Of a DNA stretch of 64,000 nucleotides, positions 18,902 through 38,899 are shown piece after piece. The DNA lies in NCBI GenBank assembly GCA_937873495.1, contig CALMXZ010000003.1, forward strand, positions 1 to 64,000, read 5' to 3'. How positions within the stretch are numbered: the first letter of the stretch is position 1; each line of letters begins with the position of its first letter. A model generated the notes under the pieces. It was not told where the DNA came from. It ran no database searches and was given only the letters and a program-made list of their open reading frames with translations. A program made the position numbers and the translations under genes. The stretch comes from an uncultured Trueperaceae bacterium (GTDB lineage: Bacteria; Deinococcota; Deinococci; Deinococcales; Trueperaceae).

Positions 18902-20073
18902 TCACCTGGCGCTGAACGCCCTACCGACGACGGCCCCGGCGGAGCCCATGACCGTCGGGGCGCCGTCTCCGACCGTCACTTCGACGCCGGCCGCGTTGCC
19001 GGCGTGGACGTAAACGGGGAGCGTGAAGCGGTAGACGGCGCCTGGCGACGCGGTCGTGTACACGAGCCGCTCGCCCTCGTTGCGCGCGGTGCCGCGGTAG
19101 ACCTCCAGCCAGCTCGTGGCCCTCACGGTGATCAGGACCTCGTTGCCGCTCGGAGCTTCGACCGGGGTGGCCGCGCTCTGGGCGCCCGGCTCGGCGTCTG
19201 CAGCCACGAGGGAGAACTGGAGCACACCGCCTTGCGTGAGGTCGACGGTCTGCTCGAGGGTCTGGTAGCCGTCGAGGCTCACGCGCAGGGTCCGGTTGGC
19301 CCTGGCCGTCACGGGGGCGGCGCGGATGGGGGTGACGCCAGGCAGCATGAAGCCGTCCACCGACACCTGCGCTCCGGCGGGCTCGGTGAGGATGTCGATG
19401 AGCACCGTGCCGCCGACCGGCGCGCTCGGCTGAGCCCCGCCGGTCAGGGGGGCCTCAAGGCCGGCGGCGGGGGGCGCGACGGTGGGGGGCGTCGTCTGGG
19501 CGGGAGGCGTCTGGGTGAGCGTGCTACCCGGGCGGAAGAACAGGGCGTTGTAACCCCACACGGCCAGGGCAACGAGCGCGACGACCAGCAGCACGGTCGG
19601 GATCATGGGGTTGATCCGGAAACCCCTCCCGTTGCGGCGGCGTTTCGCCTGGCGCGGGGGCGGTTCGCCCCGCCGCTCCTTCTCCAGGCGCTCCTCCAGC
19701 GTGGTGAGGCCGCCGGCGCGTTGGCGCTCACGCTGGTAGAGCTCGAGGGCCTCGTCGCCAGGCAGGCCGACGGCGTGCGCGAACAGCCTCACGAAGTTAC
19801 GCGTGTAGACGTCTTCCGGGAGATCGGCGAAGCGACCCTCCTCGAGCGCGCGCAGGTACTCGCGGCGAACGTGCGTCAGCTCGGCGACATCGCCGAGCTC
19901 GAGCCCCTTCGACTCGCGCGCTTCCCGGAAGAGGCGGCCCAAGTCGCCTGCGCCGGCTTGGCGCAGGTCCGCGCCGGCTTGGCGCAGGTCCGCGCCGGCT
20001 TGGCGCAGGTCCGCGCCAGCTTGGCGCAGGTCGGCGCCGCCGGTCAGCCGCGGGTCGGCGCCGTCTGGGGGCC

Positions 20074-20077
<4 letters not shown>
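18902..20077 (-). CDS. RodZ-like helix-turn-helix membrane protein
   Basis: 391 residues. The first 42 include about four copies of ADLRQAG from a 21-bp DNA repeat. Residues 46-116 are the RodZ-type HTH (GRLFREARESKGLELGDVAE...YLRALEEGRFADLPEDVYTRNFVRLFA). A basic stretch (KRRRNGRGFR) and one transmembrane helix (159-178) follow, then a Pro/Thr-rich linker, a PEGA-like segment (VLIDILTEPAGAQVSVDG) and a C-terminal DUF4115-like beta domain. RodZ links MreB to the membrane in rod-shape control. The ATG overlaps the psuG stop (ATGA), supporting the start and hence the repeats as coding. Confidence 0.8.
19950..20033. repeat. Four 21-bp tandem repeats in the RodZ-like gene
   Basis: Unit on the plus strand GCGCCGGCTTGGCGCAGGTCC, at 19950, 19971, 19992 and 20013; the last copy has two changes. 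It encodes ADLRQAG in register on the minus strand, a likely flexible or helical N-terminal extension before the HTH domain. Confidence 0.9.
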
Positions 20078-21598: not shown

Positions 21599-21628
21599 TT
21601 GACACCGCCCCGGGAGCCCGGATAGGAT
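21599..21628 (+). promoter_or_regulatory. Sigma-70-type promoter for groESL
   Basis: TTGACA (21599-21604), 18-nt spacer, TAGGAT (21623-21628). The expected transcription start falls just before or at the CIRCE-like inverted repeat, the classical arrangement for HrcA control. Confidence 0.8.
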
Positions 21629-21636
21629 GTGGCCGT

Positions 21637-21663
21637 TTGGCACTCTCATGGTGAGACTGCCAA
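21637..21663 (+). promoter_or_regulatory. CIRCE-like operator (putative HrcA site)
   Basis: TTGGCACTC-N9-GACTGCCAA, nine-base arms separated by exactly nine bases, against the CIRCE consensus TTAGCACTC-N9-GAGTGCTAA. The third base change is mirrored in the other arm (A to G, T to C), while one position in the right arm breaks symmetry. It lies between the promoter and the groES start. HrcA is the known repressor of CIRCE operons; hrcA itself is not in the window. Confidence 0.82.
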
Positions 21664-21688
21664 GTTCAGCCCTTCAACGGAGGAACCC

Positions 21689-21991
21689 ATGGCGGACAAG
21701 AAGCAGAACCTAAGGCCCATCGGCGACAAGGTCGTGGTCGAGGTCATCGACGAGCCCCAGACGACCCTCAGCGGCATCGTGTTGCCGGACAGCGCCAAGG
21801 AGAAGAGCCAGCGCGGCAAGGTCATCGCCGTCGGCAGCGGCAAGCTCCTCGACAACGGCTCGCGCGAGCCGATGGAAGTCAGCGTCGGCGACACCGTGCT
21901 CTTCGCCAAGTACGGCGGCACGGAAGTCGACCTGGGTGGCCGCGAGCTCATGATCCTGAGCCAGCGCGACATCCACGCCGTCCTGGAGTGA
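21689..21991 (+). CDS. groES: Co-chaperonin GroES
   Basis: 100 residues: [33 protein letters not shown] (about 7-39, including the mobile loop that contacts GroEL) and [21 protein letters not shown], ending [10 protein letters not shown]. GroES caps the GroEL ring during folding. The ATG at 21689 follows CGGAGG; an upstream in-frame extension lies in the operator. It is separated from groEL by 228 nt, most of it a tandem repeat array. Confidence 0.96.
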
Positions 21992-22006
21992 GGCGCAGGG
22001 CGCTTC

Positions 22007-22162
22007 GCGCCCACGGGCACGGGAACAAGAGAGCGCCCACCGGCACGGGAACAAGAGAGCGCCCACCGGCACGGGAACAAGAGAGCGCCCACCGGCACGG
22101 GAACACAAGAGCGCCCACGGGCACGGGAACACAAGAGCGCCCACGGGCACGGGAACACAAGA
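22007..22162. repeat. Six 26-bp tandem repeats between groES and groEL
   Basis: Unit of 26 bp, GCGCCCAC[C/G]GGCACGGGAACA plus AGAGA or CAAGA, starting at 22007, 22033, 22059, 22085, 22111 and 22137, with no spacers. Copies 1-3 end in AACAAGAGA and copies 4-6 in AACACAAGA; C/G at position 9 also varies. The array starts 16 nt after the groES stop and ends 57 nt before groEL. The period is not a multiple of three, so it is not a coding repeat. Each unit can form a small GCCCACGGGC-type stem in copies with G. Confidence 0.93.
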
Positions 22163-22195
22163 GCAAGACGCAAGACGAACGACTTACGTAACTAG

Positions 22196-23857
<1,662 letters not shown>

Positions 23858-37513: not shown

Positions 37514-38820
37514 TGCGCTACCGCAGCACGCGGGCGCTACGTTCAGGCACGCCGGACGTCTCGTTCGACGACGCCATGCTCGCCGGGCTCGCGCCCGACG
37601 GGGGGCTCTACTGGCCCACGAGCATCGCCCCACTGCCGCTTGGCTGGGAATCCCTTCCGTCGCCGGCCGCGCTCGCGCAGGCCGTCCTGCCGCCGTACAT
37701 GGGGGAGGCCGCGGCCGTCGCCGGCGGGCTCGACTTCGCGTGGCCGGTTACGCGCCTGGCAGACGACGTCTTCGTGCTCGAGCTGTTCCACGGGCCCACG
37801 GCGGCCTTCAAGGACGTCGGCGCGCGCTCACTGGCACGGGCGATGGACGCCGCGCTGGCCCGCAGGGGAGAGCGGGTCACGGTGCTGACGGCCACGTCAG
37901 GCGACACGGGCAGCGCCGTCGCGGACGCGTTCGCCGGCCTCGAGCGCGTGCGCGTCGCCGTGCTCTACCCCTCAGGTGGGGTCAGCCCCGTCCAGGAAGC
38001 GCAGCTCACGGCGGCCAGGCCGGGCGTCAGGACCTTCGCGGTGGCCGGAACCTTCGACGACTGCCAGCGCCTCGTCAAGGCGGCGTTCTCCGACGCCGAG
38101 TTGGCCGGCGTCCGGCTCTCCTCCGCGAACTCGATCAACGTCGGCAGGCTGCTGCCTCAGCTCCTGTACTACCTGTGGGGCACGGCGCGCGCCTGGGAGG
38201 CGCTCGGGCGGCGCGAACCCCTTGAGGTCGTCGTACCCAGCGGCAACCTCGGCAACCTCACCGCCGGGCTGCTGGCGGCCGAGGCGGGCCTGAGCGTGGC
38301 CGGCTTCCTCGCGGCGCACAACCGCAACGACTACTTCCCGCGCCACCTGGCGGGGGCGGCCGCTGCCTACGCGTTCAGCGGGAGCGTGCGGACGCCGTCC
38401 AACGCCATGGACGTGGGAGCGCCGTCCAACTTCGAGCGCCTGTACGAGGCGTTCGGGGATGACTTGCGGCACCGGGTCTCCGCGCTGCGCGTCGACGACG
38501 TCGCCACGTTGGAGCGCATGCGGATCACCTACGAGCGCCACCGTGCGCTCGTCTGCCCGCACACCGCGGTCGGCCTCGAGGCGCTCGCGCGGTACCGCGG
38601 AAGCGAACGCGCGGCGGACGGGCACGCCGCGGCAGCGCCCGCGCTGGTGTTGGCCACCGCGCACCCGGCCAAGTTCCCCGAGTCCGTGTTCGAAGCGACG
38701 GGCGTACACGCGCCCGTGCCAGCGACGCTCGAGCGTTTCACGCGCATGCCGCGCCGCGTCGAGGGTCTGGTGGCCGATCCGGCGGCGCTCCGCGCCGCGC
38801 TGCTCGCGTGGCCTGATTAG
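37513..38820 (+). CDS. thrC: Threonine synthase
   Basis: 435 residues: MRYRSTRALRSGTPDVSFDDAMLAGLAPDGGLYWP is the family N-terminus. The PLP lysine is K100 in HGPTAAFKDVGARSLARA; TATSGDTGSAVADAF, PSGNLGNLTAGLLA and ATAHPAKFPESV are PLP-phosphate and active-site motifs. It converts O-phosphohomoserine to threonine. It is translationally coupled to hom; thrB is not in the window. The last codons and the stop form the first copy of a 36-bp tandem repeat that continues past the gene. Confidence 0.95.
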   Translation: MRYRSTRALRSGTPDVSFDDAMLAGLAPDGGLYWPTSIAPLPLGWESLPSPAALAQAVLPPYMGEAAAVAGGLDFAWPVTRLADDVFVLELFHGPTAAFKDVGARSLARAMDAALARRGERVTVLTATSGDTGSAVADAFAGLERVRVAVLYPSGGVSPVQEAQLTAARPGVRTFAVAGTFDDCQRLVKAAFSDAELAGVRLSSANSINVGRLLPQLLYYLWGTARAWEALGRREPLEVVVPSGNLGNLTAGLLAAEAGLSVAGFLAAHNRNDYFPRHLAGAAAAYAFSGSVRTPSNAMDVGAPSNFERLYEAFGDDLRHRVSALRVDDVATLERMRITYERHRALVCPHTAVGLEALARYRGSERAADGHAAAAPALVLATAHPAKFPESVFEATGVHAPVPATLERFTRMPRRVEGLVADPAALRAALLAWPD

Positions 38821-38899
38821 CTCCAGTGCGCCGCGCTCCTCGCTTGGCTTGACTAGCCATAGTGCGCCGCGCTGCTCGCTCGGGTCGACCTGCCGGTGC
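38792..38899. repeat. Three 36-bp tandem repeats spanning the thrC stop
   Basis: Units start GCGCCGCGCT at 38792, 38828 and 38864. All three keep the thrC frame and read (A)ALLAWPD-stop, (A)ALLAWLD-stop and (A)ALLARVD, so the 3' end of the coding sequence, stop included, has been duplicated. The third copy has lost its stop and reaches almost to the convergent gene's end at 38902. Confidence 0.85.

Follow-up and report, generated by a model that had tools for sequence, protein, structure and literature searches.

In bacteria, minisatellites have been defined by a motif of 20 bp or more, present in two or more copies with an identity of 90% or higher, and they make up 2–4% of the variable loci in E. 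coli (PMC2884548). In Borg elements, intergenic tandem repeats are T-depleted and the length of most units is not a multiple of three; young intergenic arrays bordered by partial units have also been described there (PMC9879509). Here, a 26-bp tandem repeat array located between groES and groEL was analysed in a stretch of 64 000 nucleotides from an uncultured Trueperaceae bacterium (assembly GCA_937873495.1, contig CALMXZ010000003.1, positions 1 to 64 000; hereafter the window). The source genome (G000) is a 3.44-Mb draft in 17 contigs, and the contig bearing the array is 196 kb long. The array belongs to a known kind, the bacterial minisatellites, and its location in a groESL gap is unusual. 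The array is real and is probably a young, species-level minisatellite of the variable-number tandem repeat (VNTR) type, most likely produced by near-neutral expansion of the spacer.

Like the minisatellites and VNTR loci used for multiple-locus VNTR analysis (MLVA) typing, the array is built of units longer than 20 bp, arranged head to tail with about 90% identity or more, and is intergenic and lineage-specific; unlike the usual VNTR loci, it lies inside the groESL operon and is known from one genome of its species. Intergenic location, flanking partial units, T-depletion and a period (26) that is not a multiple of three are shared with the Borg repeats, whereas Borgs are archaeal and extrachromosomal with perfect, A-enriched repeats genome-wide, and the G000 array is a GC-rich, single bacterial chromosomal locus with two diverged unit types. 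Enterobacterial repetitive extragenic palindromic sequences and bacterial interspersed mosaic elements (REP/BIME) likewise sit in untranslated DNA that separates the genes of an operon, but REP sequences are palindromes scattered over many sites, and the G000 unit has no long palindrome and a single locus. In other families of the order, heptameric repeats (for example in L161, L166 and L168) also lie in, and lengthen, the groES–groEL gap; they differ in having 7-nt, partly inverted units, of which the AGCTATN type is dispersed through those genomes.

Six 26-bp units were located at 22007–22162 with exact spacing (26, 26, 26, 26 and 26), in agreement with the six-copy, evenly spaced array proposed in an initial annotation made from the sequence alone. 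Tandem Repeats Finder (TRF) called the array at 22007–22164 with 6.1 copies, 96% matches and a score of 253, and the top score in 40 simulated 64-kb sequences, built with the dinucleotide transitions of the window, was 87. The two genes are adjacent and co-oriented, the gap from stop to start spans 21992–22219 (228 nt, as had been reported), and about two-thirds of it is occupied by the array. The two tail subtypes previously described (copies 1–3 and 4–6) are real, but the register then used mixes the C/G site with the tail site, with all four combinations present, and obscures the arrangement of the units. With the register shifted by 9 nt, the array reads as GCGCCCACG followed by A-A-A-B-B and a 19-nt partial B unit, where A is distinguished from B by 3 of the 26 positions and units of the same type do not differ. 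On the forward strand, the 9-nt left partial unit, which is B-type, lies at 22007–22015, three identical A units GGCACGGGAACAAGAGAGCGCCCACC at 22016–22093, two identical B units GGCACGGGAACACAAGAGCGCCCACG at 22094–22145, and the right partial B unit GGCACGGGAACACAAGAGC, placed by TRF and by the new register, at 22146–22164; the partial units at both edges are thus B-type. The sense strand of the array is entirely without T and for this reason contains no start codon, no stop codon and no sigma-70 −10 hexamer.

The array is present in G000 and absent from the four readable congeners (G001, G003, G004 and G005), a gain or loss between close relatives. Their groES–groEL gaps measure 88, 86, 69 and 56 nt, and two of the four encode a GroEL 98–99% identical to that of G000. 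When the window was compared with G004 by BLAST, the match ended at 21996 and restarted at 22171 with approximately 88% DNA identity on either side; apart from the array region, the operon and its flanks were collinear throughout with the closest relative. The sequence AAGACGAGAGCGCGAGATC at the corresponding place in G004 was considered as a candidate ancestral single copy and is only loosely similar to the unit. In a further congener, the contig (G002:C173:1–1395) starts inside groEL and groES was not found, so that this gap is unread; a repeat in it could have broken that assembly. Among the named genomes of the collection, the nearest are Trueperaceae metagenome-assembled genomes with GroEL identities of 85–87%, and genomes at this level of identity are placed in the window's own family.

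The gap had been described as normally short, and this was borne out across the class, where 102 genomes or pairs with measurable adjacent genes gave a median of 17.5 nt and a 90th percentile of 88 nt, the 228 nt of G000 being the longest. In 68 groESL gaps, taken upstream of groEL loci of many phyla in the genome collection, the shortest measured 5 nt and the longest 271 nt, so that by length alone the G000 gap is no extreme case for bacteria; TRF detected weak arrays of 8–10-nt units only (best score 54) in these 68 gaps, and none as strong as that of G000. Elsewhere in the order, the long gaps of other families (L161, L162, L166–L168 and L170) often contain 7-nt repeats, partly inverted, such as GCTATNA and TTGAGCT. 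The array unit was also sought in the long gaps of G048 (179 nt) and G049 (138 nt), where short heptamer-like repeats were found instead. Dispersed matches to AGCTATNAGCTAT numbered 80 in G044, 18 in G077 and 16 in G084, and it was absent from G000 and G004.

Within G000, the array matched a single locus. With up to three mismatches allowed, the 21-nt core of the unit gave the six exact copies and three 3-mismatch matches in this genome, and the scattered 2–3-mismatch matches in relatives were similar in number to those of a reversed-pattern control. One locus, with matches elsewhere at background level, indicates that the array is not a dispersed element. Exact matches to the unit were found neither in the genomes of 84,980 species (one each) nor in viral contigs, collections from which near-identical records may be omitted. 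In 458 kb of G000 (the window and 20 stretches), the array had the second-highest TRF score, behind a 2.5-copy, 70-bp repeat.

The array therefore has the properties of a minisatellite, with head-to-tail units in the range of about 10–100 bp, high identity, a single locus, and gain or loss between relatives. The stepwise expansion suggested in the initial annotation accords with the two homogeneous unit types and the B-type partials at both edges, from which we infer the following history. A short sequence may have arisen or been captured in the groES–groEL spacer of one lineage, and replication slippage or unequal recombination would then have multiplied it in head-to-tail orientation; homogeneity within each type suggests at least two rounds. 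Probably the B units expanded first, a divergent A unit arose within the array, and A then tripled, B followed by A being the simplest history because the edge partials are both B-type. The spacer that now holds the array would be transcribed but not translated. More than 40 nt separate the array from the downstream groEL ribosome site, which is intact; extra length would be tolerated at this position and probably alters expression little or not at all, apart from making the mRNA longer.

Some observations weigh against this interpretation. Comparable arrays are rare in G000, with one other of at least four near-identical copies in the 458 kb, and that one in-frame and coding, so that slippage is not rampant in this genome. 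A function is conceivable for an array placed within a heat-shock operon, and strain-level variation in copy number, the hallmark of VNTR loci, was not observed here, with one genome per species. The present evidence favours the neutral over the functional reading. A neutral array would mean that a gap usually shorter than 25 nt in the class accepts some 156 additional bases while the groEL ribosome site stays intact, and would provide a candidate marker for strain typing. A functional one would be a rare case of a core chaperone operon tuned by repeat number.

In enterobacteria, the stability of operon mRNA can be influenced by intercistronic repeats, REP/BIME among them. By this precedent, and by its position between two genes of one operon in the longest of the 102 gaps of the class, the array could be taken for a cis-acting RNA element that sets GroEL relative to GroES through structure, processing or mRNA protection, with copy number as the dial, an explanation considered unlikely on the following results. 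The sense RNA of the spacer and of the array showed no significant excess of folding over dinucleotide shuffles (z −1.59 and −0.67), and a pure unit tandem folded no better in the sense orientation than shuffled units in tandem. The folding energy of single units is −4.4 to −5.1 kcal/mol, and their longest continuous stem has 3 bp. A GCCC-AC-GGGC stem, as initially claimed, would need a 2-nt loop and is not feasible; the feasible hairpin in G-type units is a 3-bp GCC-CACG-GGC of about −5 kcal/mol, and C-type units retain the GCC/GGC complement by inspection, the minimum-energy fold of the single unit being another weak stem. No inverted-repeat architecture was found within the array, and an Rfam search gave no family match up to E 1. 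Predicted accessibility from the groEL ribosome site to the start codon was 0.56 without the array and 0.63–0.67 with one to nine units, with no trend. RNase E prefers A/U-rich sites; the array sense strand, which has no U, contains no A/U-rich site of this type. The proposed tuning of GroEL relative to GroES by copy number is not supported, in view of the shuffle-like folding, the flat accessibility, the lack of T or U (hence of a −10 hexamer and an RNase E-type site) and the absence of the array from all readable congeners. The array might affect mRNA decay or act by length alone; nothing points to an effect on decay. A literature search, which mostly did not extend to subscription papers, returned no report of a repeat array or of mRNA processing in the groES–groEL gap. 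That copy number varies within the species and alters groEL mRNA stability or the GroEL:GroES ratio, as an evolvable heat-shock dial in an operon that is otherwise strongly conserved, is very unlikely.

The antisense strand folded better than shuffles (RNA z −4.7, DNA z −2.65), which was attributed to tandem repetition because a shuffled-unit tandem does equally well; such folding might favour slippage. Two antisense open reading frames (ORFs) across the array, 21646–22173 and 21710–22150, were regarded as spurious, the array being absent in relatives; they are free of stops across it because the sense strand lacks T and hence TCA, TTA and CTA.

An assembly artefact, with the copy number or the entire array wrong, would be conceivable in a 17-contig draft with a 158-bp array near short-read length, and is very improbable given the ordered A3-B2 types, the partial units at both ends and the continuous unique flanks within the 196-kb contig; collapse or misjoining would not readily invent such a layout, and the exact copy number may be off. 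Identical units at regular spacing resemble operator or iteron arrays, and the array might on this ground be a protein-binding array or carry an internal groEL promoter. This is extremely improbable: the T-free sense strand contains no TANNNT −10 hexamer, a promoter scan gave no match in the groES–groEL spacer, the unit is found nowhere else in the genome, and 26 bp corresponds to about 2.5 helical turns, which places successive units on opposite faces of the helix. A dispersed or mobile repeat (REP, enterobacterial repetitive intergenic consensus or miniature element) that entered the spacer and was multiplied there, as a lineage-specific insertion with a clean breakpoint against G004 might suggest, is disfavoured and hardly credible for a sequence with a single genomic locus, no exact match in other species or viral contigs and no internal inverted-repeat architecture.

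All further features of the operon were read on the forward strand. groES (100 aa; ORF at 21689–21991) has 92–98% identity to congeners, and groEL (545 aa; ORF at 22220–23857) has 91–99% identity in the four congeners whose gene is complete. Upstream of groES, a consensus scan detected a promoter-like site, TTGACA-18-TAGGAT, at 21599–21628 (10/12 matches, in itself no evidence of function), and a CIRCE-like inverted repeat, a probable HrcA operator with three mismatches to the CIRCE pattern TTAGCACTC-N9-GAGTGCTAA, lies at 21637–21663; it was the only match in the window, and 100 shuffles gave none. Together, as expected, the two candidate sites would fit an HrcA-type heat-shock operon. A short perfect inverted repeat, GGGCGC-TTC-GCGCCC (21998–22012), overlaps the first repeat unit. 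Downstream of the array, the array-free groEL leader (22165–22219) carries the ribosome-binding site ACGGAGAGAAC (22209–22219), and this site, ACGGAGAGAACATG, is identical in all five aligned genus members, G000 included. The leader opens with a short duplication, AAGACGC-AAGACGA (22165–22178), directly after the array.

Other tandem repeats were recorded in the same genome. The strongest in the 458-kb sample, at L154:15292–15464, consists of 2.5 copies of a 70-bp unit with 94% identity. An in-frame 21-bp coding repeat (GADLRQA units; window 19950–20039) lies near the N terminus of the product of a reverse-strand ORF, 18902–20077, which by eye resembles a RodZ-type helix-turn-helix protein. 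This coding array, 2 kb upstream, has 4.3 copies in G000, 5.3 in G004 and 2.9 in G003, so that close to this locus the species do differ in tandem copy number. A 36-bp repeat (2.5 copies, 84% identity) was found at window 38792–38880 and probably predates the groESL array, since G004 has a similar repeat with a 38-bp period (L137:17023–17118).
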